Source of the DNA: Methanolobus chelungpuianus
GTDB lineage: Archaea; Halobacteriota; Methanosarcinia; Methanosarcinales; Methanosarcinaceae
Assembly (NCBI RefSeq): GCF_024500045.1
Contig: NZ_JTEO01000004.1
Coordinates: 372,001-436,000, forward strand
DNA length: 64,000 nucleotides
Direction of reading: 5' to 3'
The notes below the pieces were generated by a model. That model was given only the letters and a program-made list of their open reading frames with translations. It made no database searches and was not told the DNA's origin. Below, one piece after another: positions 27,719 to 54,271 of this stretch (the stretch's first letter is position 1; each line of letters opens with the position of its first letter). The translations under genes and the position numbers were made by a program.

Positions 27719-30496
27719 ATGCTTGAGGATGAGTATCAACTTGATTTTTTTTCCGAAAACGGTTTTGTCCGTAAGCAATGTTCAAAATGCGGAAAGTTCT
27801 ACTGGACAAGGGATCCTGAAAGGAACACATGCGGGGATGCCCCGTGTGACCCCTATTCCTTCATAGGCAGCCCTGTCTTTAACAGGAAGTTCGATCTTGC
27901 CGGGATGAGGGAATATTACCTCAAGTTCTTCGAGGATCGTGGCCACACAAGACTTGAGAGGTATCCTGTAGTTGCCAGGTGGAGGGACGACATCTATCTT
28001 ACCATTGCATCCATCGCAGACTTCCAGCCCTTCGTCACATCGGGCCAGGTTCCGCCTCCGGCCAATCCCCTGACCATATCCCAGCCATGCATACGTCTCT
28101 CGGACCTTGATGCAGTGGGAAGGAGCGGCCGCCACCTCACGACCTTTGAGATGATGGCTCATCACGCCTTCAATAAAAAGGGGGAGGAGATCTACTGGAA
28201 GGAAAGGACAATGGGACTGTGCGACGAGCTGTTCAACTCACTGGGAGTTGACCCTCTTGCAGTCACCTACAAGGAAGAGCCCTGGGCAGGAGGCGGGAAT
28301 GCCGGTCCCTGCGTAGAGGCGCTCATAGGCGGCCTTGAGGTCGCCACACTGGTGTTCATGGATCTCCAGCAATCAAAGGACGGGACCATCCCTATCAAGG
28401 GCGAGACCTACCGTAAGATGGACAACTATATAGTGGACACGGGATACGGCCTTGAGCGCTTTGTATGGGCTTCCAAGGGTTCGCCCACTATATACGATGC
28501 AGTCTTCCCGGGAATCGTGAGCGAGCTAATGCAGCTTGCAGGCCTTGAGCATGAGATCGATGATCCAGAGTATGCCAATATCCTTGCCCAGAATGCACGC
28601 CTTGCAGGGCTCATGGACGTGAGCGAGAAGGCAAACCTGCTTCAGCTACGCAAGCAGGTGGCATCCAGCATCGGGACTTCCGTAGAGAAGCTCTCTGCCA
28701 TCATGGAGCCGGTGGAGAACGTTTACGCTATCACCGACCACACCCGCTGCCTGACATTCATGCTTGCTGACGGCGTGATCCCGTCAAACGTGAAAGCAGG
28801 CTACCTTGCCCGTCTTGTGCTGCGCAGGACCCTCAGGATGATGAAGGATATGGACATCGACGCCTCGCTGGCCGATATCGTGAACATGCACATCAGGAAC
28901 CTGCCTGAATATCCTGAGTTCTCCGAGAAGTTCGATGTCATCGAAGATATCCTTGCCCATGAGGAAAAGAAGTTCGACGAGACACTTGAGCGCGGCAGGC
29001 GCATGATCCAGAAATCCGCCAAGCACTACAAGTCAACCGGCGAGAAGATACCTCTGGCAACACTCATCGAGATGTACGACAGCCACGGAATCCCTCCTGA
29101 GATATCCAGGGAAGCTGCTTCCGGGATGGGTGTCGAGGTAGAGCTCCCTGATAACTTCTACTCACTTGTGGCAGAGGGCCACAGCAAGGCAGAGGCAAAG
29201 GAAGAGAAGGTGTTCCCGTACATGGAGCGCGTGGAGAAGCTGCCAAAGACGAAGCGCCTATTCTACGACGAACCCACCAGGATGAAGTTCGAAGCTGTGG
29301 TGCTTGATGTTTTCGACAACCACCTTGTGCTTGACAGCACGCTCTTCTATCCCGAGGGCGGCGGGCAGCCTGCGGACCACGGGACCATAACGGTGTACGA
29401 CAATGTCCTGAAAGTCATCGATGTGCAGGTGGTCAATGGCGTGATCGTGCACATCATCGACAAGCTAGAGGATGAACTCCACCTGCGCAAAGGCGATCTG
29501 GTTGTCGGTAAAGTGGACGAGGAAAGGAGGATGGCCCACGCCTGCCATCACACTGCGACACACATCGTCAACGATGCTGCAAGAAAGGTACTTGGTGATC
29601 ATGTCTGGCAGGCAGGTGCGCAGAAGAGCACTGACCGTGCCCGCCTGGACATATCCCATTACAAACGCATCATCCCTGAAGAGCTGAATCGCATAGAGCT
29701 CATAGCAAACCGTACTGTAATGGAGAACCAGCGTGTTACGGCCGAGTGGCTTGACAGGATAGAAGCGGAGAAGAAGTACGGCTTTAAGCTGTACCAGGGA
29801 GGAGTTCCCCCGGGAAACAGGATACGTGTGCTCAAGGTAGCTGATGACGTGGAGGCCTGCGGAGGTACCCACTGCACCAGCACAGGTCTTGTGGGGCCCA
29901 TAAAGATCCTCAAGACTGAGCGCATCCAGGATGGTGTTGAGCGTATAGAATATGCTGCCGGTCTTGCTGCAGTGAGGGCCACTCAGAGAATGGAGGAATG
30001 CCTGAACCAGTCCGCGGAGGCCCTGAGAGTTCTGCCGGAGCACCTGCCAGCAACTATCGACCGCTTCTTCAGCGAATGGAAGGAGTTCAAGAAGGACAAT
30101 GAGCGCCTGAAAGAAGAGCTGGCACGTATGCGTGTGAGCCGGATGGCGGACAGCGCCTGCGTTATCGGTGGCATGCGGGTCGTAGCAGAACTGGTGCCAA
30201 ATGCGGACGCTGACGAGCTTGTCAAGATAGCAGGCGAACTTACCGGGAACAAGGATGTCATTGCCATTCTTGCAAGCGACTGTAGCGGTGTCAAGATAGT
30301 GGCAGCCGCAGGCGAGGATGCGCTTAAGGCCGGCGCAGATGCCGGGAAGATCGTTTCCACGATGTCCAGGGCAGTTGGCGGTGGCGGCGGCGGCCGTCCG
30401 AACATGGCTCGCGGCGGCGGTCCTGAGTCCCTCCGGATCAATGACTCCATGCAAACTGGTATCGACCTGCTCAAACAGCAGTTGAAGGCAAACTGA
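27719..30496 (+). CDS. alaS: Alanyl-tRNA synthetase
   Basis: A 925-residue archaeal AlaS. The archaeal N-terminal zinc extension (CSKCGKFYW ... CGDAPC) precedes the class II catalytic core. The editing domain has HACHHTATHIV (about residue 611) and CGGTHC (about 713). A C-terminal oligomerisation part ends with the glycine-rich GGGGGRPNMARGGG loop. It charges tRNA-Ala and clears mischarged Ser/Gly. A KaiC-like ATPase gene begins eight bases after the stop. Confidence 0.97.
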   Translation: MLEDEYQLDFFSENGFVRKQCSKCGKFYWTRDPERNTCGDAPCDPYSFIGSPVFNRKFDLAGMREYYLKFFEDRGHTRLERYPVVARWRDDIYLTIASIADFQPFVTSGQVPPPANPLTISQPCIRLSDLDAVGRSGRHLTTFEMMAHHAFNKKGEEIYWKERTMGLCDELFNSLGVDPLAVTYKEEPWAGGGNAGPCVEALIGGLEVATLVFMDLQQSKDGTIPIKGETYRKMDNYIVDTGYGLERFVWASKGSPTIYDAVFPGIVSELMQLAGLEHEIDDPEYANILAQNARLAGLMDVSEKANLLQLRKQVASSIGTSVEKLSAIMEPVENVYAITDHTRCLTFMLADGVIPSNVKAGYLARLVLRRTLRMMKDMDIDASLADIVNMHIRNLPEYPEFSEKFDVIEDILAHEEKKFDETLERGRRMIQKSAKHYKSTGEKIPLATLIEMYDSHGIPPEISREAASGMGVEVELPDNFYSLVAEGHSKAEAKEEKVFPYMERVEKLPKTKRLFYDEPTRMKFEAVVLDVFDNHLVLDSTLFYPEGGGQPADHGTITVYDNVLKVIDVQVVNGVIVHIIDKLEDELHLRKGDLVVGKVDEERRMAHACHHTATHIVNDAARKVLGDHVWQAGAQKSTDRARLDISHYKRIIPEELNRIELIANRTVMENQRVTAEWLDRIEAEKKYGFKLYQGGVPPGNRIRVLKVADDVEACGGTHCTSTGLVGPIKILKTERIQDGVERIEYAAGLAAVRATQRMEECLNQSAEALRVLPEHLPATIDRFFSEWKEFKKDNERLKEELARMRVSRMADSACVIGGMRVVAELVPNADADELVKIAGELTGNKDVIAILASDCSGVKIVAAAGEDALKAGADAGKIVSTMSRAVGGGGGGRPNMARGGGPESLRINDSMQTGIDLLKQQLKAN

Positions 30497-30504
30497 GGTG
30501 CGGC

Positions 30505-31845
30505 ATGATCCCCGGGGAAATCAGGCAGTTCTTCTCTTCCCAGTTCGGGAAGTCCCTTGTGGTCAAGGGCAAGCCCGGAACCGGCAAGACCACTTTCGTA
30601 TTCGGGATACTGCATGAATTATGCCCCGGCGGGAACTGCATCTATATTTCCCCCCGGATAGATAAGTCCTCATCATACGGGAAGTTCCCCTGGATAGAGG
30701 GAGATTTCAACAACAATGAGGATTTCCTGAGGATGCTCGCTTCCCGCATCAAGGCGATATGGGAATCAAGCGACTCAAAACCCATGATAGTTGTGGACTC
30801 CATTGATTCTCTCAGTATTGCCACCACAAGGTCTGTACACTGGGAGGAGAACAAGTTCGAGCTGGAACGCCTTCTCATGGATTTCTCAAGGAAGGTCAAT
30901 GCCGACCTTGTGATGATCACAGAAAAGACCGATATCGACTCACTGGACTATCTAGTCGACGGGGTTGTCTCTGTCGAGATATCCGAAATGGCGGGAAGCG
31001 ATATCCGCAAGATCCATCTGCTCAAGCTCCGCGGTGTTGGCATGTCCCAGTCCAGGTACCTGTTCACGCTGCACAATGGAACGTTTACCAGTTTCGAGCC
31101 TTTCAGGGTCTCATTTCCAGAACACACTCTGATCCCCTCTCCTGTGACGGACCCTGCCCACAGTAAGATATCCACCGGCAGCCCTGACTTTGACGAGATA
31201 CTGGGTGGTGGCTACCAGAAGGGAAGTTTCAACCTATTCGAGATCACAAGCGGTGTAGGAGATTCATTTTACAGTATCCTGCTACCGACCTTCATAAACC
31301 ACCTGAACATGGGCAGGGCCATGCTTAGCATCCCCACTGAAGGAACCAGTGTTGAGACAGAAAAAAGGATGATATCTCCCTTCACCAATGAGGCCAATTT
31401 CCCCCGCCAGTTCAAGGGATTCGAGATACGTGACCAGAAGGGCCGCATGCCTGCTTATGTGGAAGCGTTCTCCGGAAACCTCTACAAGGATATGGAGATA
31501 TTCTATCAGTCAAAGCACGAGATGATGCGCCAGCTCGGATCTCCTCTTCTTGACTATATAGGACTTGACAGCATGGAGTACAGTTATGGCTGGGAGAACA
31601 TAGGCGCTGTGATAGGACAGATCGCTTCCGTTACAAAGACCACTGAGAACATAGTTGTCGCCGTTGCAAAACACGGCCAGAAGATCACTGACTCCGTGGC
31701 TCACATGGCCACCACCCACTGGAAGTTCGAGAACGTGGACAAGACCCTTGTGATGTACGGGATCGTCCCAAAGACCGGGATGTATGTGGCCCAGATGGAT
31801 TTCAGCTCGGGCTATCCCCAAGTCAGGCTCGTTCCGATCAAGTGA
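30505..31845 (+). CDS. Two-domain KaiC/RAD55-like ATPase
   Basis: A 446-residue protein with two RecA-fold domains. The first has a good Walker A (KGKPGTGKTTFVFG, about residues 22-35) and Walker B (PMIVVDSIDSLS, about 92-103), as in the GvpD/RAD55 group. The second, from about residue 220 (ISTGSPDFDEILGGGYQKGS), has the KaiC entry sequence but EITSGVGDSF in place of a P-loop, so it probably does not hydrolyse ATP. Archaeal single-domain relatives include FlaH. It is followed by two receiver-domain genes and sits near the archaellum operon, so a role in signal-controlled motility is inferred, not shown. Confidence 0.82.
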   Translation: MIPGEIRQFFSSQFGKSLVVKGKPGTGKTTFVFGILHELCPGGNCIYISPRIDKSSSYGKFPWIEGDFNNNEDFLRMLASRIKAIWESSDSKPMIVVDSIDSLSIATTRSVHWEENKFELERLLMDFSRKVNADLVMITEKTDIDSLDYLVDGVVSVEISEMAGSDIRKIHLLKLRGVGMSQSRYLFTLHNGTFTSFEPFRVSFPEHTLIPSPVTDPAHSKISTGSPDFDEILGGGYQKGSFNLFEITSGVGDSFYSILLPTFINHLNMGRAMLSIPTEGTSVETEKRMISPFTNEANFPRQFKGFEIRDQKGRMPAYVEAFSGNLYKDMEIFYQSKHEMMRQLGSPLLDYIGLDSMEYSYGWENIGAVIGQIASVTKTTENIVVAVAKHGQKITDSVAHMATTHWKFENVDKTLVMYGIVPKTGMYVAQMDFSSGYPQVRLVPIK

Positions 31846-31930
31846 TTCTTTGTCTCCTCTTTTTTCCACTACACCCCAAACATTAATATGAATATAGCAC
31901 TAATATTTACAAAACAAGTTTAAAAGGTAA

Positions 31931-32995
31931 ATGATAATGGATGATCAGACTAAGGAAATCCTGGCAACTCTAAGGGACGAGTTATCAGATAAGAGTTCAC
32001 TGTTCTTTGCTCAGGTTGACAGTTCTGTCGAGCGTTTAGTCTATCTTCATATTTACGATGTACTCCGGAACGACCCTGCAAGAAATGTCGTGTGGCTGTG
32101 CCTCAATTATCCGCGTGATAAGGTGCTGGGGAAGTTCAAGGATTTCGGTTTCGATATCATTGGACTTCAGGACCGTTTGTTCTTCATTGATGTTGAAGTG
32201 CCAGGCAAGCCGCCACAGCAGGGGACCTTTTACTGCAGCTCGGTGGCGGACTACACCAAGATGGCATCCCATATATCAAACCTATTTGAGAGGGATGCCC
32301 GCACCCTGTTGGTAATGGACAACATGAATGTGCTGGCTACCGATACCATGCAGGTGGTCGAGACCTTCATGCAGTTCGTGGAGAAGAAAGTGCGTGAGAA
32401 TGAAGGTGCAATCGCCTCCATGCTTCTGAAGGATATACTCTCCCAGGAGAATGAGATGCTGGTAAAGTCCTTTTTTGATGTGATCCTCGACGTGACCAGC
32501 ATCGGTGAGGTGCATACCCAGATAGGGCTCAAGGATTTCGACTTCAGGTACATGGTGGAGGATGGCTCCATCAGGCTGGAATATGCCCGCAGGAAAGTCA
32601 AAAGGGACCGGCTGAAGATCCTCATAGTGGATGACGAGCCTGACATACCGGAACTGCTCAAGCTATCCCTTATCAGTGAGCCCTACGATTTCCTGGTAGC
32701 TTATAACGGTCAGGAGGCGATCGATATCACTCTGAAGGAACATCCCGACCTGATATTGCTTGATATCATGATGCCTGACATGGACGGATATGAGGTTGTC
32801 GAGCAGCTCAAGAACAGCAAGACAGCCAATGATATTCCTGTTATCATGATCTCCGCGAAGACCGCGATAGAGGACAAGGTGAAAGGCATGGAGCTTGGCA
32901 TTGATGATTACATATCCAAGCCCTTTGATAAAAGGGAAGTGAAAGCCCGGATAAAAATGGTGATGAGGCGGCTTGGATGGGCTCTAGAGGAATAA
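31931..32995 (+). CDS. Degenerate RecA-like domain fused to response-regulator receiver
   Basis: A 354-residue fusion. Residues 1-215 look like a RecA/KaiC-type fold that has lost its P-loop: LFFAQVDSSVERLVYLHIYDVL where Walker A would stand, while TLLVMDNMNVLAT resembles Walker B. Residues 230-345 are a complete CheY-type receiver (ILIVDDEPD; phospho-acceptor Asp in LILLDIMMPDMDGYE; ISAKT; DDYISKPF). No DNA-binding domain is present, so output must be by protein contact. It lies between the KaiC-like ATPase and a stand-alone receiver. Start is ATG 31931 or 31937. Confidence 0.85.
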   Translation: MIMDDQTKEILATLRDELSDKSSLFFAQVDSSVERLVYLHIYDVLRNDPARNVVWLCLNYPRDKVLGKFKDFGFDIIGLQDRLFFIDVEVPGKPPQQGTFYCSSVADYTKMASHISNLFERDARTLLVMDNMNVLATDTMQVVETFMQFVEKKVRENEGAIASMLLKDILSQENEMLVKSFFDVILDVTSIGEVHTQIGLKDFDFRYMVEDGSIRLEYARRKVKRDRLKILIVDDEPDIPELLKLSLISEPYDFLVAYNGQEAIDITLKEHPDLILLDIMMPDMDGYEVVEQLKNSKTANDIPVIMISAKTAIEDKVKGMELGIDDYISKPFDKREVKARIKMVMRRLGWALEE

Positions 32996-33056
32996 TTATA
33001 TATTTCAGTTCTATATTATTCTCTAGCGTAGAGCATTTCTTTAACAGGAGTATACG

Positions 33057-33437
33057 ATGCATCCAAAAATCATGGTGGTAGACGATGAGCCGGATACCAT
33101 AGACCTTGTAAAGATAATCCTTGAGTCTGAGAATATAGAGGTCATCGGCGCAAGCAGCGGATTTGAGTGCCTTGAGCTGATGGACGTGGAAAAGCCCGAT
33201 CTCATTCTACTGGACATCATGATGCCTGATATGAACGGCTGGGAGACCTTCCATAAGATCAAGGAAAAGGATCCGGGCCTGCCTGTTGCAATGCTCACTG
33301 TCAAGAGCCAGGAATTCGATAAAATGCTCGGCCTGCATGTGCTCAAGGCGGATGACTACATTACAAAGCCTTTCAGCAGGAAAGAACTGATAAAAAGGAC
33401 CAAGGAACTGCTTGGAACAAAGATCCCTAACTCCTGA
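33057..33437 (+). CDS. Stand-alone response-regulator receiver protein
   Basis: A 126-residue single receiver domain: VVDDEPDTID at the start, the phospho-acceptor aspartate in LILLDIMMPDMNGWE, LTVKS and DDYITKPFSRKEL at the end. No output domain is attached, so it should act like CheY or as a phosphorelay carrier. It resembles the receiver half of the upstream protein, which suggests duplication. The kinase partner is not in this cluster. Confidence 0.92.
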   Translation: MHPKIMVVDDEPDTIDLVKIILESENIEVIGASSGFECLELMDVEKPDLILLDIMMPDMNGWETFHKIKEKDPGLPVAMLTVKSQEFDKMLGLHVLKADDYITKPFSRKELIKRTKELLGTKIPNS

Positions 33438-33455: not shown

Positions 33456-34514
33456 TCACAATGTCTCGCACAGGATCGCTACTCCTTCCTTCAGGAATAC
33501 GTGCGCTTTGCGATCCCCGCTAAGGTCATCTTCAAGCTGCCTGCGAATATCCCAGTACTCTTTTGGCTCTACCGCAGCTCTTAATATCACAGTTCCGAAC
33601 CCGCTTCTCCTGAGGAAAGCATTGATCTGCCCGGTGTCAAAATCCAGAGTTGACAGCACTTTATACCTGTTTTTGAACATGGGATGTTCCACGGCCCGAT
33701 CGGATGTAAGGAAAAGGCGTTTCCGGTCTATGACGAAAAGGCTGATGTCTGAAGCCTGTTCTGACAGGTCCTTTGCCAGTTGCGGGAGCAGTCCTGCTCT
33801 TTCGACAGCTTCCTCGGGTTCGTAGGCAAAGGAAGCAAGCCTTTCGGCAGTTTTGAGCTCACATGTGGCTGGGGATGACTCAATACGTGATCCCGATGGC
33901 AGGGATACTGCCGATGTGCCACACTTCATCAGGCTGCCAAAGTACAGGTCGAGCCTGTTGAGCTTCCCCTCAAGGGAAATATATTCCTTTTCACACTCAA
34001 AGGGTATCCTTTCAGGGGTGAGCTGCGGAGGCGCCTCAAAAGCAAAGCCTGAAGCTATGGGACTGTATGCTGCTATGACTTCTGGTATGGCAGGCCGCAG
34101 GCTGGCGATGTCGCGCATGTCCTCGGTTGGAGGCCTTGCAGGATCGGAAAAGACAATATCAAGTTCCGGTAACTGCCGGATAACTTCAGGTGATAGCGCG
34201 TCTCCGCAAATGAATTCCACATTGTCGATACCAAGAAGCCTGCAGTTCTTCTTGGCATAGGCTATCTTCTTCGGGTCTATCTCCACTGCATAGACCTGGT
34301 CACATTCTCTTGCAAAATATATGGTCTGCCCGCCAACACCGCAGCTGATATCTGCGATGGTGCTGCATTTCAGTCTTCCGGCCCTGTATCTTGCGACATC
34401 CTCGGGTGTTGCGAATCTGACCCCGTCACTGTCGGATATGATATTGTGTTCGAACTTCTTCTTGCGTGGCACTCTTATCCCCGGAAAAAGTGATCTCAAA
34501 TGATTTAAAGCCAT
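33456..34514 (-). CDS. Class I SAM-dependent methyltransferase with THUMP-like C-terminus
   Basis: A 352-residue protein from ATG 34514. The SAM site is ADISCGVGGQTIYFAREC (about residues 60-77) followed by VYAVEIDPKKIAYAKKNC and the catalytic-type IVFSDPARPP. The C-terminal 100 residues (RYKVLSTLDFDTGQINAFLRRSGFGTVILRAAVEPKEYW) look like the THUMP-like domain found in rRNA or tRNA methyltransferase relatives. The target RNA or protein is unknown. An open frame reaches 34616, but a minus-strand TATA (about 34572-34564) lies inside it, which favours the 34514 start. It is divergent from the archaellum operon. Confidence 0.82.
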   Translation of the reverse strand: MALNHLRSLFPGIRVPRKKKFEHNIISDSDGVRFATPEDVARYRAGRLKCSTIADISCGVGGQTIYFARECDQVYAVEIDPKKIAYAKKNCRLLGIDNVEFICGDALSPEVIRQLPELDIVFSDPARPPTEDMRDIASLRPAIPEVIAAYSPIASGFAFEAPPQLTPERIPFECEKEYISLEGKLNRLDLYFGSLMKCGTSAVSLPSGSRIESSPATCELKTAERLASFAYEPEEAVERAGLLPQLAKDLSEQASDISLFVIDRKRLFLTSDRAVEHPMFKNRYKVLSTLDFDTGQINAFLRRSGFGTVILRAAVEPKEYWDIRRQLEDDLSGDRKAHVFLKEGVAILCETL

Positions 34515-34565
34515 CTCTGTGAGAGTAGGATAAGCTTCGGTAAATACACCACTATTATTCAATAT

Positions 34566-34610
34566 TTTTATATAATATCGCATGTATATTGAAGTATCTA
34601 TAGATACTTC
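34566..34610 (+). promoter_or_regulatory. Archaellum operon promoter with 20-bp palindrome
   Basis: TATA-like tttatataat (34568-34577) is followed by GAAGTATCTATAGATACTTC (34591-34610), a perfect 20-bp palindrome that falls where transcription should begin, about 27 bases before the flaCE start codon. The place and symmetry are those of a dimeric regulator's operator. The same TATA region can also serve the divergent methyltransferase gene, so one site may control both. Confidence 0.6.
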
Positions 34611-34637
34611 CAACAAACTGTCTTATAATGTGAAACC

Positions 34638-35921
34638 ATGTCCGGCCTGAGCGACACCATAAAAAAAGTAACCGGCCTCTTGGGAAAAAAGGATGCAGGT
34701 AAAGGTGGCAGCTCGCCCTTTGGTTCCGGCGACCTTCCTTTCTCTCCCGGTATCCCTGACCTGAACGCCCTGCCGGATCTGACTGCCGGTTTCCCTGGTT
34801 CGAAATTCCCATCTCCAGGAATGGGCCCGGCTCCTGGTATGCCTCCATCTCCTCCTGGCATGGGTGGCCCAGGAGGGTTCCCTGGCGCCTCCCAGCCAGT
34901 CAATAACGAGCAGAAGGAAGCGATAGAATCAAATGCCAAAAGGATCAAGGAAGTTGAATCGAAGCTCTCCAAGGCCGATGTGACCCTGAACATGGTACAG
35001 CGTGATAACGAGGAGATCAGGAAGACCGTTGACAAGATAGACCAGAGCGTGCTCGAACTGCTATCTCTCTATGAGATCGTATCCAATCAGGTCAATCCCT
35101 TCGTAGGTGATGATGTTGGTTCCCGTGCCACGATAGAGAGATTCGAGAAGACCGAGAAGAGGATAACAGAACTTGCGGACCTGCTTGTCATATTCAAGAA
35201 TGACATGGATACCGTGGCCCATAAGCTCAACATGCCCGGCATCCCTAAGGAGATCGGCGCAAAGATGCAGGATATCGAGTCCAAGCTTAATGCATTTGCT
35301 GATGCGATGTCCATGCTGCATGAAAGTATAGAACAGTTGAATGCCAGGACAGAGGAACTTACAGGCAAGACCGGGGCGATCGACCAGAATATCCTCGAAC
35401 TGGCAGAATCCACAAGCAACATCTCAGCCAGGGTTGATGAGCTGGAGCGGAAAAGTGCCCTTCAGTCCATTAATCATGCAAAGGATGAGCTGGAGGATGC
35501 TTCCGACGAGGGATCAGATGGTCAGGATAAGGATAGTTCCAGGAAGAACACTAAAAAAGGACTTCCACTGGTGCGCCTGGAGAACCTGAGGACCGATCCT
35601 ACCAGTGTGGTGGTCCTGCTCAACTGGATAGAGTTCCTGATGGAGCGTGTGGGAAGGAACAATCTAATGGACGCGCTTGATTATTACGTGGACATAGGCT
35701 GGATCAGTGAGGATGTCCGTTCAGAGGTAATGGCATACGCCCGCGGCATCGACTACTATGTGGAGAAGCCTACATGGCGCTTGCTGCCTGAAGACCACAC
35801 CAAGTCACTTCTTTTCATAGAAAGGCTCTGCGGACGCAAGATAGACCGCAATATGCTCAGTTCCATTGACCGTGAGATGTCAAAAGTAAAGCACGGCCTG
35901 GAGGAACTCTATGGGATTTGA
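34638..35921 (+). CDS. flaCE: Archaellum motor accessory protein, FlaC-FlaD/E fusion
   Basis: A 427-residue protein. After a short start and a Pro/Gly-rich linker (about residues 20-85), coiled-coil sequence leads into a FlaC-like part (VLELLSLYEIVSNQVNPFVG, about 140-160), more coiled coil, an acidic linker, and a C-terminal FlaD/E domain (from about 315: LPLVRLENLRTDPTSVVVLLNWIEFLMERVG). Such proteins form the cytoplasmic ring of euryarchaeal archaella and link it to taxis proteins. It is the first gene of the motor operon and overlaps flaF by 11 bases. Confidence 0.9.
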   Translation: MSGLSDTIKKVTGLLGKKDAGKGGSSPFGSGDLPFSPGIPDLNALPDLTAGFPGSKFPSPGMGPAPGMPPSPPGMGGPGGFPGASQPVNNEQKEAIESNAKRIKEVESKLSKADVTLNMVQRDNEEIRKTVDKIDQSVLELLSLYEIVSNQVNPFVGDDVGSRATIERFEKTEKRITELADLLVIFKNDMDTVAHKLNMPGIPKEIGAKMQDIESKLNAFADAMSMLHESIEQLNARTEELTGKTGAIDQNILELAESTSNISARVDELERKSALQSINHAKDELEDASDEGSDGQDKDSSRKNTKKGLPLVRLENLRTDPTSVVVLLNWIEFLMERVGRNNLMDALDYYVDIGWISEDVRSEVMAYARGIDYYVEKPTWRLLPEDHTKSLLFIERLCGRKIDRNMLSSIDREMSKVKHGLEELYGI

Positions 35922-36342
35922 GGTCGCAGTGGTCACGGCCATATTCTTCATTTCGGCTCTGGTTGTAGGCACCTTCTCTTATACCGCTCTAAGTACATCA
36001 TCGGATCTTGTAAATGATGCAGCGGCAGAGCAGTATCAACTGCAAACGAGTCGCATGCATACATCGGTGAATATCGATTATTCAGTCCCGGCTGCTTCAG
36101 GTAGTATTTATGAGCTGACCGTGACGCTCACAAATACAGGCAGTGAGACACTCAGGTTCGATGAGCTGAATATCCTCATAGACGGGCATCTGGAGCCCTA
36201 TACTTTTAACGGGACTGCTGCTGTCTGGGTGCCCGCTGAGACACGCAGTCTTACAGTGGCAGGTCTCACAGGTGCCGGGCAGCACCGTGTCAAGGTCGTG
36301 ACCGGGAATGGTGTCCCGGCTTATGACACTTACCAGGTGTGA
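35911..36342 (+). CDS. flaF: Archaellum stator protein FlaF
   Basis: A 143-residue protein with one N-terminal membrane helix (about residues 4-26, VVTAIFFISALVVGTFSYTA) and an immunoglobulin-like exterior domain (YELTVTLTNTGSETLRFDELNILIDG). FlaF sits outside the membrane and binds the S-layer as part of the stator with FlaG. It overlaps the end of flaCE. Confidence 0.88.
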   Translation: MGFEVAVVTAIFFISALVVGTFSYTALSTSSDLVNDAAAEQYQLQTSRMHTSVNIDYSVPAASGSIYELTVTLTNTGSETLRFDELNILIDGHLEPYTFNGTAAVWVPAETRSLTVAGLTGAGQHRVKVVTGNGVPAYDTYQV

Positions 36343-36359
36343 CCGGAAGCAGTGTCAGA

Positions 36360-36401
36360 CTTATATAGTATTGTCAATATATTATCCTTCAAATTATATT
36401 G
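36360..36401 (+). promoter_or_regulatory. Possible internal promoter before flaG
   Basis: An 87-base gap separates flaF from flaG, wide for this operon. It holds two TATA-like boxes (cttatatag, 36360-36368; attatatt, about 36393-36400). The second lies a little over 30 bases before the flaG start, as for an archaeal promoter with a short leader. Confidence 0.4.
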
Positions 36402-36429
36402 TCATAACACGACCAGACGGTACGAAAGC

Positions 36430-36936
36430 ATGAAGAGCCGACATATTTCCCGGAATGATTCCTTTTGCAGGTGCCAGAGAGCAGAAACTGCTATCACGCA
36501 CATGATCTTTTTCATCGCTGCCATGATCCTGGCAATGGGGGTCATCACTGTCCTTTCTGCTGACGTGCAGTCTATCGTCTCCTCCTCCTCTGCAAACAGC
36601 AAACTGGTAGCACAGCAGATGAGGACCGATATAACTATCGTTAACGACCCTCTCATGGTCCCTTACGACAGCTCCGGCAATACGTACACCTTCTATGCCA
36701 AGAACACAGGCAGGACCGAGCTGACGCCTGATTTTATAACAGTACTTGTAGACGGTATTCTTGTGGAGCCGGATAACATGGAAGTTGAGATACTTGATGG
36801 CGACGTTGTATGGAGGCCCGGGGATATCCTGGTGCTGCATGTGATTCCCAGCCCCAGCCCCCTCGGTTCCGGGGACCATCGCATCCTTGTAGCCGCAGAG
36901 AACGGGAAGTCAGGCAGCATGAGCTTTAGAACTTAG
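36430..36936 (+). CDS. flaG: Archaellum stator protein FlaG
   Basis: A 168-residue protein with a basic start, one membrane helix (about residues 22-44, ITHMIFFIAAMILAMGVITVL) and an exterior beta domain (GNTYTFYAKNTGRTELTPDFITVLVDG) like that of FlaF. The two form the stator complex. The start at 36430 is chosen because the longer frame from 36352 would run through the promoter-like gap and adds no FlaG sequence. Confidence 0.88.
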   Translation: MKSRHISRNDSFCRCQRAETAITHMIFFIAAMILAMGVITVLSADVQSIVSSSSANSKLVAQQMRTDITIVNDPLMVPYDSSGNTYTFYAKNTGRTELTPDFITVLVDGILVEPDNMEVEILDGDVVWRPGDILVLHVIPSPSPLGSGDHRILVAAENGKSGSMSFRT

Positions 36937-36947
36937 CGGAGTAAAAA

Positions 36948-37643
36948 ATGGTAAAGATATGTTCGTTCGAGATTCCCCGGGATGAGCTCAATGCAAAGCT
37001 GGGCGGAGGTTTTCCTGCAGGATCGCTTGTGGTCATAGAAGGCGGGAGCGGCGGCGGTAAGAGTTCCATCTCCCAGCGCCTTTCCTTCGGGCTGAATGAG
37101 AATAAGGTCAGTGTGACTCTCATTTCCACCCAGATGACAACAAAGGGTTTCATCAACCAGATGTATTCAATGGACTACCCCATCGCTCCTTACCTGCTGA
37201 ACGGCTCTCTTCTTTATATCCCTGTGATCCCGCTGGTCCAGGCTGCAAAGTCCCGTTTCGATTTCCTTGAGAGGCTTATGGCTGCGGAGGAACTGTTCGA
37301 GAAGGATGTTGTCATAATCGACACCATTTCCTCACTGATCAAATACAGCGCGAACACTGAAAAGAGCCTCGATCTCATATCGTTCTTCAAGAAGCTCAAT
37401 GGAATGGGAAAGGTGATCATCCTCACAATAGAGCCCAACCAGCTGGATGAAGATATTGCTTCCATGTTCAGGTCATCATGTGATATTTACATCACCCTGA
37501 AATCGAGGCCTCTCGGAAGTGAGGTAAAACGCACGATCGTTGTGAACAAGTTCACAGGGGCAAAAGGCCCTGTGGGGCAGATGATCGGTTTCAGGATAGA
37601 ACCGAGGGTAGGCCTTGTAGTGGAGATAGCATCTGTTTCATGA
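36948..37643 (+). CDS. flaH: Archaellum KaiC-like regulator FlaH
   Basis: A 231-residue RecA-fold protein. Walker A is EGGSGGGKSS (residues 31-40) and Walker B is KDVVIIDTISSL. FlaH binds ATP, forms a ring beneath FlaI and controls assembly and rotation; ATP binding rather than turnover is thought to matter. It is the single-domain relative of the two-domain ATPase at 30505-31845. Confidence 0.94.
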   Translation: MVKICSFEIPRDELNAKLGGGFPAGSLVVIEGGSGGGKSSISQRLSFGLNENKVSVTLISTQMTTKGFINQMYSMDYPIAPYLLNGSLLYIPVIPLVQAAKSRFDFLERLMAAEELFEKDVVIIDTISSLIKYSANTEKSLDLISFFKKLNGMGKVIILTIEPNQLDEDIASMFRSSCDIYITLKSRPLGSEVKRTIVVNKFTGAKGPVGQMIGFRIEPRVGLVVEIASVS

Positions 37644-37663: not shown

Positions 37664-39325
37664 ATGGACCTGGAATTCGAGAAAGCCATACAAAGGAATC
37701 CGCATCTGGGTGAATACGTGCGCAAGTTCATGCGGGATAACGGTGCGGACGAGCCTACTTTCATGATCAAGCTTTCCAAGGACATCAGTAAGGATAATGT
37801 AAATATCATCCTTCCTGTTGGTGATCCTGTCTTTATTCACCTGTATGGCACCCCGGAGCTGGGAGAGGTACGCTACTACAGCATAGAGCCATTGCTGAGT
37901 GACCTGGAGAAACAGAAGTATGATTCCGTGCTGAGCATCATCCTTGAAAAATCCGCAAGCGAGGCTGTCCCCAACTCAGAGGCCGAACTGAAAGAGCTTA
38001 TAATCAAGCTTCTTAACGAGTCTGTAGACATTGGTGCCGGAGGGAGTCTCGAAGCTGATGTCAGTGAAAACAAGTTCGATATATTGCACAAATTGATGCC
38101 CGTGCAGAGAAAAGTTCCTGTGACCCAGGGAGAGTACAACAAACTGCTTTACCATATAGAGAGGAACATCATCGGTTCCGGTCCCATAGAACCTATCATC
38201 AGGGATCCCTATCTTGAAGATATCAGCAGTATCGGTGTTGATAATGTATTCATCGTCCACAAGATATTCGACACCATGAAGACAGACCTGACCTTCGGGG
38301 ACGAGAAAGGCCTTGACAGCTGGCTCAGGAGCATGAGCGAACGTATAGGCCGTCCTGTGAGCGATGCCCGCCCCATTGCCGATGGTGCACTGCCGGACGG
38401 CTCACGCATCAACATCATCTACAGTATGGATATCAGCAGGCGCGGCAGCAGTTTCACCATGCGTAAGTTCAGTGAGGTCCCTGTCAGCATCATCCAGCTG
38501 ATAAGCTGGGGTGCGGTGAACGCCGAGATGGCTGCCTACATGTGGATGTGTCTTGAGAACGGTATGAGTGTCTTCTTCAGTGGTGAGACTGCCAGCGGGA
38601 AGACAACAATGCTGAATGCCTGTCTTGCATTCGTCAATCCCAAGGCAAAGGTTTTCAGTGCGGAAGATACGGCTGAGGTCCAGCCTCCTCAGCCTGTGTG
38701 GCAGCAGCTGATCACCCGTGAGGAAGGGCCAGTTGACTCCCGTGTGGACACCTTTGCCCTGCTCAAGGCTGCGCTGCGTTCCAGGCCAAACTATATCATT
38801 GTGGGTGAGATCCGTGGAGCCGAAGGCAACGTGGCTTTCCAGGGCATGCAGACCGGGCATCCGGTCATGGCCACTTTCCACGCATCGGCTGTCAGTAAGA
38901 TGATACAGCGACTCACTGCCGATCCTATCAATGTGCCTGTTACCTTCATCGACAACCTTAACGTGGCAATGATACTGTCCGCAGTTTACCGTAAGGGGAA
39001 ATTCCTCCGCCGCTGCCTTGCCATCGAGGAAATCGAGGGCTACTATGAGGAAGTAGGAGGCGTGGTCACAAGGGCAGTCTTCCAGTGGGACCCCGAAAGT
39101 GACAAGCACAGCTTCAGGGGCCTGAACAACAGTTACATCCTCGAGAACAAGATAGCCACTAAGCTGGGTTATGAGGATAAGAGGCAGATATACCAGGATC
39201 TCTTCCTCCGGGCCAAGATACTGGAAGAAATGCGGTCAAGGGGTATAGAGGATTACTACGATGTACTGGAAATAATTGTTAATTTCTACAAGCACGGTGT
39301 TGACGGCCTGCCATTTGTCGTGTAG
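37664..39325 (+). CDS. flaI: Archaellum motor ATPase FlaI
   Basis: A 553-residue type II/IV secretion ATPase. Walker A is GETASGKTT (about residues 306-314), the Asp box follows at VFSAEDTAEVQ, Walker B at NYIIVGEIRGAEG and the His box at GMQTGHPVMATFHA. FlaI hexamers power both archaellin export and rotation. It is 20 bases after flaH and 8 bases before flaJ. Confidence 0.96.
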   Translation: MDLEFEKAIQRNPHLGEYVRKFMRDNGADEPTFMIKLSKDISKDNVNIILPVGDPVFIHLYGTPELGEVRYYSIEPLLSDLEKQKYDSVLSIILEKSASEAVPNSEAELKELIIKLLNESVDIGAGGSLEADVSENKFDILHKLMPVQRKVPVTQGEYNKLLYHIERNIIGSGPIEPIIRDPYLEDISSIGVDNVFIVHKIFDTMKTDLTFGDEKGLDSWLRSMSERIGRPVSDARPIADGALPDGSRINIIYSMDISRRGSSFTMRKFSEVPVSIIQLISWGAVNAEMAAYMWMCLENGMSVFFSGETASGKTTMLNACLAFVNPKAKVFSAEDTAEVQPPQPVWQQLITREEGPVDSRVDTFALLKAALRSRPNYIIVGEIRGAEGNVAFQGMQTGHPVMATFHASAVSKMIQRLTADPINVPVTFIDNLNVAMILSAVYRKGKFLRRCLAIEEIEGYYEEVGGVVTRAVFQWDPESDKHSFRGLNNSYILENKIATKLGYEDKRQIYQDLFLRAKILEEMRSRGIEDYYDVLEIIVNFYKHGVDGLPFVV

Positions 39326-39333
39326 GTGAGCTC

Positions 39334-40995
39334 ATGGGTAACAGTTATGAGAAGGCATTCAAGAACCTCGGCATGGATCCCAGGGACTATGCCCGGAAAT
39401 TCGCTTTACCCATCATTGTTTTCGGCATTGTGTTCGCAGTGCTCATGCAGATCCTGCTGCCGACACTTTTTGTAGGCCCGGCAAGCTACATACCTGCACT
39501 TGTTGCTTTCATATGTGTCTTTTTTGCCTTCTCATATCCCCTGTCCGTTCTAGCTTCAAAGGCAGCGCGCATGGACAACAACATGCACTACTATATCACC
39601 CAGATGGGTTCCATAGCCACCGCAGAGACCCCAAGGCTTGATATTATCCGCATCGTGTCGGAGAATGAGGATTACCGTGAACTTGCGCATGAGACAAGGA
39701 AGATTTATGACCTTGTGACTGTCTGGAACATGAGCCTGGCAGATGCATGCAGGTTCATATCAAAAAGAACTCCATCTGTCATATTTGAGGATTTCCTTGA
39801 CCGCTTTGCCCATGCGCTCCAGTCGGGAGAGGATGTGAAGAGCTTCCTTTTTGCCGAGCAGAACGTGGTAATGAACGAATATGAGGCTATGTATAACGGT
39901 GCCCTCTACTCTGTGGAGATAGTCAAGGAGCTTTTCGTTTCCCTTGTAATGTCCCTCATATTCCTGGCCTCCTTTGCGGTCATCATGCCTGTGATAACAG
40001 GTATGAACGCGGAACTGCTCATGGCCATCGTGGTCGTGGTCTTCCTTGTCACGGACCTTGTACTTGTTATGTTCACCAGGAGCAAGGTGCCGCAGGACCC
40101 GGCATGGAGCAGGTCAAAAGCGCTGACCAAAGACAAGATCAGGTTGTATCGCTCCATCCCCGTATCCCTGGCAGGCTGCCTCATTGTAGGCGTAGCTCTC
40201 CTTCTCTACGGGAAGGTCAACACTTCAATAGCTGTTGCGATGTTCTTCACTCCTCTTGTTTATACAGGATACGTCGCGCGTAAGATCGAAAAGAGTATTC
40301 GCAGGAAGGATGAGAACTTTCCGGCTTTCATCCGCTCCCTGGGCAGCTCCGCAGGTGCAAGGGGCGGCATGATAGATGACGCATTAAGGGCTCTGCGTGC
40401 TCATGATTTCGGACCCCTGACAAAAGATGTCAACAACCTCTACAAGATGCTGGCAACAAGGATCGATAAGTTCTCTTCCTGGAACCACTTCTCAGCAAAC
40501 ACCGGAAGTAACCTTATAAGCAGGTTCTGTGTGATGTTCGTGGAGGCAACCAACCTTGGAGGGCAGCCTGAGATCATCGGCGACATAATAGCAAGCAATT
40601 TTCACAGGATAGTCAACCTGAGGAAAAAAAGGACCCAGTCCGCAAGCAGCCTTGTGGGTGTCCTCTACGGCCTGACAGGAGGCATAGGTTTTACCATGTA
40701 CATTTCCCTTGGTGTGGTGGGACTGATGCAGGAGATGTTCGCAACTGTGGAGATGCCTGCAGGTATGTCCATAGGCATGGTGCTGTACACCAATGTGGGT
40801 AACATGACAACTCTTGAGAACATGGTTCTCGGCATAATGATAGGCCACTCGTTCATGTCTGCGCTTCTCATTCGCATAGTTGACGGGGGACACATGCTTA
40901 GCTCAACCATCGACTTCGTCGTCATGGTGTGGATATCTGCAATAAGTGCAGTGGTAACGATAGCAGCAGTGTCATCTCTTCTTGGAATGGGTTGA
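39334..40995 (+). CDS. flaJ: Archaellum membrane platform protein FlaJ
   Basis: A 553-residue polytopic protein with two T2SF/GspF-like units: helices at about residues 25-75, then a long cytoplasmic region (STEMGSIATAETPRL-like helices, FEDFLDRFAHALQSGEDVKSFL), helices around 200-250 and 275-315, a second cytoplasmic unit (ENFPAFIRSLGSSAGARGG) and final helices at 440-553. FlaJ anchors FlaI in the membrane. It ends the operon; leuB converges from the other side with a weak TTCCG-AAATA-CGGAA hairpin (41036-41050) between them. Confidence 0.94.
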   Translation: MGNSYEKAFKNLGMDPRDYARKFALPIIVFGIVFAVLMQILLPTLFVGPASYIPALVAFICVFFAFSYPLSVLASKAARMDNNMHYYITQMGSIATAETPRLDIIRIVSENEDYRELAHETRKIYDLVTVWNMSLADACRFISKRTPSVIFEDFLDRFAHALQSGEDVKSFLFAEQNVVMNEYEAMYNGALYSVEIVKELFVSLVMSLIFLASFAVIMPVITGMNAELLMAIVVVVFLVTDLVLVMFTRSKVPQDPAWSRSKALTKDKIRLYRSIPVSLAGCLIVGVALLLYGKVNTSIAVAMFFTPLVYTGYVARKIEKSIRRKDENFPAFIRSLGSSAGARGGMIDDALRALRAHDFGPLTKDVNNLYKMLATRIDKFSSWNHFSANTGSNLISRFCVMFVEATNLGGQPEIIGDIIASNFHRIVNLRKKRTQSASSLVGVLYGLTGGIGFTMYISLGVVGLMQEMFATVEMPAGMSIGMVLYTNVGNMTTLENMVLGIMIGHSFMSALLIRIVDGGHMLSSTIDFVVMVWISAISAVVTIAAVSSLLGMG

Positions 40996-43590: not shown

Positions 43591-46098
43591 TCAAACCTCT
43601 ATCACATTTCCATTCAGCACGTCCGGTTCACTGACACTGACCTGCTGTGTCGTGTTGCCGTAACTTATCGTATATGGCCCGGTGGGCCTTACATCGAACT
43701 GTGTCTCTCCGGGGATTGGCCCCTCCGTGGAATAAGGCACTGTGAACGAGTATGCGCCGTCAGATATGGCAGACTGGGAGTATGTAAATGACCTGCCCTG
43801 ATTCGTTTCAATGGTGTTGCTGATGGTCACGGTCTCTCCCGTTGGTGCATTACCTGTGATGGTTGCGCCTTCAACATACTCGAACACCTTGACATAACCC
43901 GTGTCTGTGAGTTCAAGGTTGCCGCCATAGAGTACGTTGTACACGTTCTTGTAGCCCGTCTCACTCGTATACCCTGTTGGAGCTTCAGGCGACTCGTGTA
44001 CAAGACGGTACTGCTGAAGTCCATCGCCGTCAAAGATGTGCAGCCTTGCCTCCATTGAGTTGTAGTATCTTTCCCCGGGCACGTACTGGGCACCGCTGTC
44101 AGTCTGCACTGACACATAGTACCCCTCGGTGTCCATGGTCCAGGCGGTCATGGCGTAGAACTTACCGGTTGCCATTTCCACATCGGATATTATGTAGCGT
44201 GCTGCAGCCTTGTCGGGGTCCGGATGAATAGCCTCGAGGACTGCGGTTGCCTCTTCCTCCGAGGGTGCTGTGAAGAACGGTGCAGCGCCAGGTCTGTTCT
44301 CTTCATCAATGCTTGCAGAGCGTCCTCCTATACCTGCCTGGAATGGGTTGGCATTCGGCAGCCGCCGTGCAATGGCCTCTATCTCATGGCCGTAGTCCCA
44401 CCAGGACATGACTCCATATGCGCTGTCAGGATAGCCGAATCTTTCCCCGCTTTCAGGTGCTTCGTATATCTGGAGGAAGTCTATACCAGGATCCGGGGTG
44501 TTGTCCCTCATCCAGAAGAGCGACTCAAGCCAGTAGCCATTTGCCCCGCTGGCATACTGTGACTGCTCCATGGCAAGGCTATAGCTTGGATAAGCGACGA
44601 GCAGTAAGAGGATGAAAATGGTCAGCAGATGGCCTGCCTTGACGTTCTTGCTTAAGAAGTGTGGCAGCTCTCCTACAGAGTGGACCTTTTCATGGTAGGC
44701 GGTCTCAATTTTTCTCCAGCCCACCATGTCAAGGACCTTTGCTGCAAAATACCCGGAAAGGAGTGCAACGTTGATCGCATAATAATATGCGAAACGGTTC
44801 TGGCCGTATATGGCAAGCAGCATTATGAAGGTCCAGACCAGGACGAGCAGTTGTTCCGGTCTCTTTTCCTTCCTTATACTGTAGGCCAGCATGAACATCG
44901 CTATTATTGAGATGAAGAATCCCATGGCGAAGTTATACCAGACCGAGCTCAGAGTGAAGGAACCGCCGCGGTAGAAGATGGAGGAGACTTCGCCTACTGT
45001 TGAAAAACCGCCGGTCTGCACCTTAAATATCGCTGCAGGGGTTGCAATGATCATATAGTACACTGAGGGTGAAACAATCCTTAGTGCTATAAGTGCAACT
45101 ATAATAGTTACCATGAGCACCAGGGGGTAATACAGAGGATTTAATTTCCTCCTGTTAATCTCTTTGTGAACCAGGCTCATGTATACAAAAGCAGCCATTG
45201 CTGCCAGAGCTGATAAAAGATGGAACCAGGAGTAGTAGTAGATGGATACTCCCATATCAAAATGGATGAATGGAAGGACCAGCAAGAGACCCACCAGAAA
45301 AGTTATTATGCCTACTATCCCAAGGTAATCGGTGGACCTGTTATTCACATGATCGATTGAATACTGGATTGCAGCAAAGATGACAATGATCATTCCAAAT
45401 AGCGGTGCTCCCGCCCACGTTAACTGATATGCGGCATACATCACTCCTGCAAGGATCGCATATACCAAAGGCTTGGCAAGCTGTTTATCCATGTGCTCAA
45501 GCATCTTCACCGAAAGATTAGCTTTCTTTGCCTGGATCATTGCAAGCATAAAGAATAAAATGAAAAGTGTACTGAAGAGCGTCTCTGCAACGTGATGATC
45601 AGTGAATATGATCATGGAACGGTTCAGGAACTGTCCGGGAGTTATGGATATAAGAATGGCCGCAATAACTCCTGTTTTTCTGTCCTTCAGATGCTTCCCG
45701 AGGAAATATACCGGAAACACAAGCAATGCACCCAGCACTGTAGGGAAGTAAGCCCCAATGGTATTCAGAAGCCCAGTGCCCGGATTCCCAAGGCCTATCA
45801 CCAGTGCAGTTATTGCGATCATGTGATCGAAAAGTGGACCGAAGTGGATAAAAGATCCCTGGGGATAATTGGTCAACGGGTTATAAAACATTCCCTGCGG
45901 ATAATTGTGCAGGAGCACTTCGACCATACGCATATGGTACAGGGGATCGTTACTGAACCTAACGAAACCGTTTGGCAAAAACACACTGTCAGCAGGCCTT
46001 ATTCTTATGCTCAGTGCGACAAAAAAAGCAACTGATACAATGACCAGGGACATTAAGTCCTCTTTTGCCTTACCAAGCAGCGATCTAACATTATTCAT
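43591..46098 (-). CDS. aglB: Oligosaccharyltransferase AglB (STT3)
   Basis: An 835-residue membrane enzyme. About a dozen helices fill residues 15-500; the first exterior loop has the catalytic acidic motif in FSNDPLYHMRMVEVLLHNYP. The soluble C-terminal domain carries the WWDYGHE signature (about residue 566). It moves a lipid-linked glycan to Asn in N-X-S/T sequons of surface proteins such as S-layer protein and archaellins. The glycan-synthesis genes that follow support the role. Start is at 46098 (MNNVRSLLG). Confidence 0.95.
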   Translation of the reverse strand: MNNVRSLLGKAKEDLMSLVIVSVAFFVALSIRIRPADSVFLPNGFVRFSNDPLYHMRMVEVLLHNYPQGMFYNPLTNYPQGSFIHFGPLFDHMIAITALVIGLGNPGTGLLNTIGAYFPTVLGALLVFPVYFLGKHLKDRKTGVIAAILISITPGQFLNRSMIIFTDHHVAETLFSTLFILFFMLAMIQAKKANLSVKMLEHMDKQLAKPLVYAILAGVMYAAYQLTWAGAPLFGMIIVIFAAIQYSIDHVNNRSTDYLGIVGIITFLVGLLLVLPFIHFDMGVSIYYYSWFHLLSALAAMAAFVYMSLVHKEINRRKLNPLYYPLVLMVTIIVALIALRIVSPSVYYMIIATPAAIFKVQTGGFSTVGEVSSIFYRGGSFTLSSVWYNFAMGFFISIIAMFMLAYSIRKEKRPEQLLVLVWTFIMLLAIYGQNRFAYYYAINVALLSGYFAAKVLDMVGWRKIETAYHEKVHSVGELPHFLSKNVKAGHLLTIFILLLLVAYPSYSLAMEQSQYASGANGYWLESLFWMRDNTPDPGIDFLQIYEAPESGERFGYPDSAYGVMSWWDYGHEIEAIARRLPNANPFQAGIGGRSASIDEENRPGAAPFFTAPSEEEATAVLEAIHPDPDKAAARYIISDVEMATGKFYAMTAWTMDTEGYYVSVQTDSGAQYVPGERYYNSMEARLHIFDGDGLQQYRLVHESPEAPTGYTSETGYKNVYNVLYGGNLELTDTGYVKVFEYVEGATITGNAPTGETVTISNTIETNQGRSFTYSQSAISDGAYSFTVPYSTEGPIPGETQFDVRPTGPYTISYGNTTQQVSVSEPDVLNGNVIEV

Positions 46099-46135
46099 GT
46101 TTCTCTATTCCCTCGTAAGAATATATTCTATTCTG

Positions 46136-47296
46136 TTAATCAAATAATTTGGCTATTATTTCGTTATAGTATTTTAAAGTTGTATCCCATGTCCGTTCAG
46201 GAGTTTCATACTTTTCTTCTGATCCGAACTGTTTTGCAATCTCGGTAGTGATCTCCCGTACATTTCCGGGTTCCACAAAAAAGGTTCCATCATAATCGGC
46301 CATTGACTCCTGAAGGCCGCCTACCCGTGAGACTACTACCGGTTTCCCGAATACCATCGCTATATGGGCTATCCCGCTCTGCGATGCCCTGAGGTATGGG
46401 AGGACTACTACATCTGCAGCACTGAAATATAGAGCAACCTTATCATCCGGGATATACTCATCAATAAGCGTTATCTTATCTTTGAATGAGGACGCGGCGA
46501 TCTGATCTGTTATCTCCCTGCGATCATCCCATATTTCCCCTACAATAAGCAGCCTGCTGTTCTGCAGGATCTCATCAGGCAGTTGTTCGAAGGCTTTTAT
46601 CAGGTGATTGACTCCTTTATACTTTCTGATGAGGCCAAAGGAGAGTATTACAAAATCTTCCTCAATGGACAATTGACTTTTAGCCTTCTCATTATCCAGA
46701 GGTGATCCGTATTGGTCGTAAAGGCCATGAGGAACAACGTATATACTGGAGGGGTCGATGTTGTATCTTTGGGCAACAAGTTCCTTATCCGATTCAGAGT
46801 GTGCTATATAGGCATTAAGGTTCTTCCGGAGCAGTTTGCCCGTGAACTTCGAATAAATGCGGATAGGCAAGACCGACTCTTCAAAAGGGTCAACCACTTC
46901 ATGGAATTCTATAATTATCTTTGGTTTGCAGGTCAGACGGGCGAATAACTTTAACAGAATATGCATATGTGCAACCGAAGATGTCCACCACTGAAGAACC
47001 ACAACATCGGGTTTTTGCTGCTTTAGGAATTTATATGCGCCCAGCCAGGTAAAAGGATTGTTGTAGTCCATCCCGTCAAATACAGTGACTTTGGAGTTAA
47101 ATTCAAGAGAGGATATATTTTTACCTACGTGATCCTTTCCCGGGAAAAGAAAAGTTGGGAGCAGCTGCCTGAAGCAGATGGCCGATACCTGGTAAGGATC
47201 TGACATTGCGTTTGCCAGCTTGATCGTGTAATAACTGATGCCGCTGGTGAACCGCTTTGAGGGACCAGCTATACATACTCTCTTATGGTATTTCAT
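46136..47296 (-). CDS. GT4-family glycosyltransferase
   Basis: A 386-residue GT-B enzyme with the usual glycine-rich acceptor loop at the N-terminus (CIAGPSKRFTSGISYYTIKLANAM) and the C-terminal sugar-nucleotide site (VVLPYLRASQSGIAHIAMVFGKPVVVSRVGGLQE). Sugar and acceptor are not predictable. It is on the aglB strand 37 bases upstream of it, so both are probably one transcript and serve N-glycan assembly. Confidence 0.9.
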   Translation of the reverse strand: MKYHKRVCIAGPSKRFTSGISYYTIKLANAMSDPYQVSAICFRQLLPTFLFPGKDHVGKNISSLEFNSKVTVFDGMDYNNPFTWLGAYKFLKQQKPDVVVLQWWTSSVAHMHILLKLFARLTCKPKIIIEFHEVVDPFEESVLPIRIYSKFTGKLLRKNLNAYIAHSESDKELVAQRYNIDPSSIYVVPHGLYDQYGSPLDNEKAKSQLSIEEDFVILSFGLIRKYKGVNHLIKAFEQLPDEILQNSRLLIVGEIWDDRREITDQIAASSFKDKITLIDEYIPDDKVALYFSAADVVVLPYLRASQSGIAHIAMVFGKPVVVSRVGGLQESMADYDGTFFVEPGNVREITTEIAKQFGSEEKYETPERTWDTTLKYYNEIIAKLFD

Positions 47297-47336
47297 TTTA
47301 TATGATTACTACAGCATCTTTATATTAAAATAATGC

Positions 47337-48443: not shown

Positions 48444-48534
48444 TGATTTACCTAAAAAGAACCAACTTATTAACTATATTATATATATTATTAATATAAC
48501 CACAGAACTCATATTCCTATTTAAGGTGAAACAG

Positions 48535-49590: not shown

Positions 49591-49628
49591 ATCTTTAGTT
49601 TTGTTACAAGTGGGACGCAGGATGATTT

Positions 49629-50768: not shown

Positions 50769-50774
50769 ACTACT

Positions 50775-52220: not shown

Positions 52221-52225
52221 TAAAT

Positions 52226-54147: not shown

Positions 54148-54271
54148 ATGAGCTTAATTTTCCTTTTTCTATTTTTATTCGATAAGAGATGGAGTAGAAA
54201 GGTAATATCCAATAGTAACTGAGGACTAATAAAAATCTATGATGTCGTATGGATAAGGTCTTAACATCTCT

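Follow-up and report, generated by a model that had tools for sequence, protein, structure and literature searches.

A receiver-fused inactive KaiC protein and a GvpD-like protein in a conserved gene block beside the type-1 archaellum operon of Methanolobus

Three consecutive genes in a genome of the methane-producing archaeon Methanolobus, which encode a GvpD-like protein (ORF 1), an inactivated KaiC-family domain fused to a receiver (ORF 2, hereafter iKaiC-REC) and a stand-alone receiver (ORF 3), form a block that is repeatedly conserved beside type-1 archaellum (arl) genes in the Methanosarcinaceae. We propose that this trio may be a small KaiC-family regulatory module under two-component control. 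The reading that we prefer, and to which we give roughly an even chance of being correct, is that a receiver-gated inactive KaiC protein and a GvpD-type ATP switch work together and probably affect the neighbouring archaellum in Methanolobus and two related genera.

To our knowledge, the mode of action of most archaeal response regulators without output domains is unknown. KaiC-family hubs are a leading idea for such regulators and have little experimental support; these hubs are reportedly the subject of a 2017 mBio paper by Makarova et al. A conserved block beside a motility operon makes the hub idea testable with three genes and a swimming readout and, if our reading is true, GvpD-family proteins would gain a role outside gas vesicles. 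In the literature covered, which did not extend to the Makarova et al. 2017 KaiC-hub paper, we met no account of the trio or of a connection between it and type-1 arl genes. Hubs of this kind are known; it is the repeatedly conserved setting that is newly described, and the novelty is modest.

Gene layout in the window

The window is the whole stretch of 64,000 nucleotides that was analysed, from a 2.6-Mb genome of Methanolobus (Methanosarcinaceae). The three plus-strand ORFs lie at positions 30505..31845 (ORF 1, 446 aa), 31931..32995 (ORF 2, 354 aa) and 33057..33437 (ORF 3, 126 aa), and as they are kept in 27 of 27 Methanolobus genomes they are not chance reading frames. ORF 1 starts 8 bp after the end of alaS, the plus-strand gene for alanyl-tRNA synthetase (27719..30496). 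On the other side, a minus-strand gene for a SAM methyltransferase (33456..34616; PF09445, 48 bits) stands between the trio and the arl genes; it occupies the same position in nearly all linked loci and is absent in genus g9. The arl operon then follows on the plus strand, beginning with arlCE, which encodes a fused switch-complex protein (34638..35921; PF04659 94 bits, PF05377 84 bits), and continuing with arlF and arlG (35911..36936; NF052590 115 bits, NF052591 113 bits), arlH (flaH) of type 1 (36948..37643; NF052589 275 bits), and arlI and arlJ (37664..40995; NF058587 771 bits, NF004704 679 bits). The initial annotation had placed FlaH 3.5 kb from the trio, which agrees with the start of arlH 3.5 kb beyond ORF 3; it had missed the 8-bp distance to alaS, the opposite-strand methyltransferase gene before arl and the membership of ORF 1 in the GvpD family.

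Alignment of the spacer upstream of iKaiC-REC revealed a TATA-like block, CCCAAACATTAATA (31875..31888, plus strand), in 8 of 8 aligned sequences of the Methanolobus group, where L012 differs at one or two positions, and the remaining spacer had diverged. This block occurs once in the window and is probably the promoter of iKaiC-REC itself. Neither the window nor the separate archaellin locus of this genome showed a promoter element common to iKaiC-REC and other genes. The possibility that the trio and arl form one operon was rejected for this window, given the minus-strand gene between them and the conserved promoter-like block that iKaiC-REC has of its own.

Two further features of the region are recorded here. 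Downstream of arl, positions 43591-58085 of the window hold a surface-glycan region with an AglB oligosaccharyltransferase, a glycosyltransferase, a polysaccharide synthesis protein and a GDP-mannose enzyme, followed by a pyridine-nucleotide oxidoreductase. At 1.4 kb past the window end, a gene (L137:1421-4219) encodes a 932-aa protein with C-terminal FlaC-like and ArlD/E domains, a second large ArlCE paralogue that is present in most genomes with type-1 arl.

ORF 1 is a GvpD-family protein

ORF 1 is a GvpD-family protein by sequence. It passes the Pfam cut-offs for both GvpD_P-loop (PF07088, 71.2 bits against 24) and GvpD_bR2 (PF20440, 30.4 bits against 27.9), also matches the KaiC profile (PF06745, 39.7 bits), has GvpD as its best match and falls far under the ArlH/FlaH cut-offs. 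The first of its two KaiC/RecA-like halves has intact Walker A and B motifs, the Walker A motif G22-x-P-G-T-G-K-T-T being invariant in an alignment of 13 orthologues, and the second has lost Walker A and carries instead S249-G-V-G-D-S-F, equally invariant and without lysine. This confirms a two-domain KaiC-like protein with one intact and one degenerate ATP site, as initially annotated. The predicted structure of ORF 1 was poor (pLDDT 57).

The catalytic glutamate pair that follows strand 2 in KaiC is replaced in ORF 1 by YISPR, whereas canonical KaiC paralogues of the same genome keep it (SMEE, ATEE, TFEE). At this site ORF 1 reads SPR, ArlH reads STQ, and most inspected relatives, including haloarchaeal GvpD, read STR. 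Because the pair is replaced, ORF 1 may bind ATP and yet lack hydrolysis of the KaiC type. The same is reported for ArlH, a switch of the KaiC type to which ATP binds but is not hydrolysed (PMC8978795). ORF 1 thus resembles ArlH in its KaiC fold, its predicted ATP binding and the absence of the glutamate pair, but ArlH is a single-domain motor component and ORF 1 has two domains.

The likeness to haloarchaeal GvpD, which extends to YxS(T/P)R in place of the KaiC glutamate pair, has clear limits. Identity is only about 24-30%, and the arginine-rich region 1 (RGRTRR in three haloarchaeal relatives) is missing from ORF 1, which has no Arg/Lys cluster. GvpD lowers the amount of GvpE, an activity that needs its P-loop, and requires the arginine-rich region for GvpE breakdown (PMC4390858). 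A gas vesicle function was considered and rejected: in addition to the missing arginine-rich region, none of the 33 genomes that carry the GvpD-like gene has a GvpA match, so gas vesicles are not the target, and ORF 1 is not a gas vesicle regulator.

A GvpD-like gene was also seen in another family of the phylum (L173:6958-10540), where it precedes a gene for a receiver without the usual phospho-Asp and then genes for a type IV pilus-type ATPase and a membrane protein. This is possibly an independent association of GvpD-like, receiver and pilus genes.

An inactive KaiC domain fused to a receiver, and a lone receiver

Residues 1-225 of ORF 2 adopt a KaiC/RecA fold without a P-loop in the AlphaFold2 model (mean pLDDT 87.5). 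Sequence searches with this region gave no significant solved homologue and fold comparison alone succeeded, with Foldseek matches that were KaiC chains besides receivers; GxxxxGK was found in 0 of 20 orthologues. Residues 230-342 form a receiver (PF00072, 107 bits) in which D234, D235, D278 and K330 are invariant across the 20-sequence alignment and S/T308 is conserved. ORF 3 consists of a receiver (PF00072, 101.7 bits) with all phosphorylation residues present (D9/D10, D53, T81 and K104). Both receivers carry the VDDEPD motif of OmpR/PhoB-type receivers, and neither receiver protein showed an output that binds DNA or has enzymatic activity. The proposal of a signalling module made up of a P-loop-less RecA-like/receiver fusion and a lone receiver, with no DNA-binding output, is therefore borne out by domain content.

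The fusion itself is not new, although the initial annotation had put the trio forward as a possible new module. In the parts of their survey that concern these proteins, Galperin et al. (2018, PMC5847659) list iKaiC-REC response regulators of the same architecture, with an inactivated KaiC-family domain ahead of the receiver, for six Methanosarcinaceae genera, with Methanolobus named. Those parts differ from the present account in that a GvpD-like partner, a lone receiver and linkage to the type-1 archaellum go unmentioned in them.

Distribution across the family

Within the 112 Methanosarcinaceae genomes surveyed, iKaiC-REC is present in 65 (and in no g13 genome), the GvpD-like protein in 33, and a close ORF 3 orthologue (at least 69% identity, adjoining iKaiC-REC) in 36. 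Within the family, this occurrence of iKaiC-REC agrees with a restriction to Methanosarcinaceae other than Methanosarcina. All 33 genomes with the GvpD-like gene have both the fusion and the lone receiver. The ArlH tree divides into a type 1 and a type 2/3 clade, both supported at 100/100, with about 28% identity between them; the tree was sampled with 25 sequences, and the remaining genomes were typed by bit score. Of the 33 genomes that carry the GvpD-like gene, 32 have type-1 ArlH (partial in one draft); the exception is a 70% draft, in which arlCE is retained next to the trio.

Both iKaiC-REC and type-1 ArlH are present in 55 genomes, the fusion alone in 10, type-1 ArlH alone in 2 and neither in 45. 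The raw Fisher value for this co-occurrence, 6e-19, ignores shared ancestry, and the pattern across genera therefore carries more weight: all nine genera with iKaiC-REC include at least one member that has type-1 arl, and iKaiC-REC occurs in 0 of the 5 genera of this family without type-1 arl. The two genomes with type-1 ArlH and no fusion are G071 (98% complete) and G072 (a 72%-complete draft). G071 has archaellum genes and neither iKaiC-REC nor the lone receiver.

The arl locus of G071, a member of g12, lacks arlCE as well as iKaiC-REC and the lone receiver (L124:8604-10264), and arlCE-like genes (PF04659) lie elsewhere in its genome, which is apparently a case of joint loss or relocation of all three. 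In two g12 genomes (L123:3741-7235 and L124:3943-7317) about 1.8 kb interrupts arlI at residue 397, as would fit an intein in this motor ATPase.

Gene order, selection and the possibility of an incidental neighbourhood

The prevailing order is alaS, (GvpD-like), iKaiC-REC, (receiver), (methyltransferase), arl, where the genes in brackets are not always present. It is seen in 26 of 27 Methanolobus genomes, with trio and arl on one contig, and the block adjoins type-1 arl in at least six GTDB genera (Methanolobus, g2, g9, g11, g12 and g14), with some members missing outside Methanolobus. The linkage to an archaellum locus that had been proposed is thus upheld by the neighbourhood survey, and rather than being common in genomes without archaella and never linked to them, the trio comes with arl genes in all 33 genomes that have the GvpD-like gene. 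In the ArlH tree, the full-trio genera g14 and g2 fall outside the other type-1 genera. This one gene tree suggests an ancestral position of the trio next to arl and several losses of the GvpD-like gene.

The link to the archaellum is not exclusive. Six genomes, comprising five of Methanohalophilus (one closed and 99% complete) and one of Methanococcoides, have iKaiC-REC without ArlH at the thresholds used, and their iKaiC-REC reading frames are intact. For close Methanohalophilus pairs without ArlH, dN/dS of iKaiC-REC is about 0.10-0.16, and in most close Methanococcoides pairs it is 0.03-0.05. iKaiC-REC is therefore under purifying selection in genomes of both genera without ArlH, which implies a role for the fusion that is independent of the archaellum, unless the losses are very recent. 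A motor component would occur only with, and always with, an archaellum; iKaiC-REC is kept in these six genomes and is absent from G071, and its retention without ArlH indicates that it is not a dedicated motor part and that its ancestral role need not be motility.

These observations lend weight to an alternative in which the trio acts as a general response regulator of the Methanosarcinaceae next to alaS, the neighbouring archaellum is a matter of history and the targets have nothing to do with it and lie in metabolism, the cell surface or stress. alaS is the constant upstream neighbour of iKaiC-REC even where arl is absent or lies elsewhere, as in Methanococcoides (g7) and Methanohalophilus (g10), so the linkage could be an inherited position; the selection just described acts without ArlH, and the 20 KaiC-domain matches in the host genome offer other possible partners. 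An incidental neighbourhood does not readily account, however, for the absence of any genome with the GvpD-like gene and no arl genes (0 of 33), for the lack of iKaiC-REC in every genus of the family without type-1 arl, or for the retention of block order in several genera. On this evidence we consider the alternative rather unlikely, while giving it serious weight.

Proposed mechanism

In our preferred reading of a receiver-gated module, a histidine kinase encoded elsewhere, other than CheA, would phosphorylate the receiver of iKaiC-REC and the lone receiver. Since it has no P-loop for ATP, iKaiC-REC would serve as an adaptor, gated by phosphorylation, for a KaiC-family partner that is active, and in Methanolobus this partner would most likely be the adjoining GvpD-like ATP-binding switch. 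The output would pass through protein-protein contact, for example on the activity or stability of a regulator, comparable to the action of haloarchaeal GvpD on GvpE, and in this lineage would probably set the production or working state of the neighbouring type-1 archaellum. We infer the phosphotransfer, the partnership between the GvpD-like protein and iKaiC, and the archaellum as target.

The archaellum had been put forward as a possible target from the start, and its linkage and co-occurrence with the trio stand. The link is favoured by the retention of arl genes in every genome with the GvpD-like gene and by the adjoining position of the block in at least six genera, and is weakened by the fusion being kept without ArlH, by the absence of fusion and receiver from G071 and by the minus-strand gene between trio and arl. 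What has lost ground is dedication to the archaellum, given a fusion that persists without ArlH and two archaellate genomes, G071 and G072, without a fusion.

There is precedent for KaiC-family proteins in this setting. Makarova et al. (2016, PMC4858521) note that KaiC-family ATPases adjoin archaellum and pilus loci, and in Haloferax volcanii the loss of either of two regulators, the KaiC-like CirA or CirD, changes archaellation and motility (PMC13286277). The likeness to CirA and CirD is one of description, and the account given of them there differs in describing no fused or neighbouring receiver.

Direct action of the trio on the motor is possible. A more specific version of the phosphorelay, in which CheA plays no part and a dead KaiC subunit gated by its receiver, together with the GvpD-type ATP switch, would determine how an archaellum type that lacks canonical CheF assembles or rotates, through contact with the ArlCE/ArlH complex, strikes us as improbable.

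Chemotaxis and the archaellum motor

In archaeal chemotaxis, phosphorylated CheY reaches the motor by way of CheF and ArlCDE (PMC9126983). Canonical CheF was absent from the host genome and from all genomes with type-1 arl only; the genomes that have it carry type-2 arl, apart from one draft in which no ArlH was scored. Together with the start of arlCE 1.2 kb from the lone receiver, this could point to the trio as the chemotaxis output arm of an archaellum that lacks canonical CheF, with the receivers as alternative CheYs and iKaiC-REC replacing CheF between CheA and ArlCE. The genome's own CheY (motif VDDAAFMR), however, sits in a CheY-CheB-CheA-CheC cluster, and alignment with it shows that the trio receivers have OmpR-type motifs and not those of CheY; ORF 3, with VDDEPDT, was rejected as the genome's CheY on both grounds. 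The trio also occurs in archaellate genomes without detectable CheA, among them G054 (99% completeness) and the g14 genomes; it is independent of CheA and is not the chemotaxis output. These genomes, and a half-length CheF-like protein encoded beside the archaellins, make chemotaxis unlikely as the main input and weaken the trio as a CheF replacement, which we judge decidedly improbable.

Least probable of all, and speculative, is the insertion of iKaiC-REC into a KaiC-type ring, of its own ATPase or of ArlH, from which it would signal phosphorylation directly to the motor: iKaiC has a KaiC fold without a P-loop, ArlH is KaiC-like with phosphorylation-dependent oligomerisation (PMC8978795) and the fusion is linked to and co-occurs with type-1 ArlH, but six genomes retain the fusion and have no ArlH, and ArlH occurs without the fusion in G071 and G072.

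CheF-like proteins were encountered in two other settings. The archaellin locus of the host genome (contig C5, L195:1805-17408; L196 and L197 are similar) is separate from the arl operon and contains tandem archaellins, two histone-deacetylase-family proteins, two GNAT-like acetyltransferases, a V4R protein, a ParA/MinD ATPase, the half-length CheF-like protein (195 aa) and a KaiC ATPase with intact motifs; this half-CheF beside a KaiC protein may be the real link from CheY to the motor of type-1 archaella. In two Methanolobus genomes, G059 (L178:2096-3301) and G060 (L179:1260-2462), 400-aa proteins with a CheF-like domain (PF04283, 28 bits) are encoded between the gene for a protein that has some 575 aa and looks PAS-like by eye and the gene for a KaiC-like ATPase of 232-235 aa.
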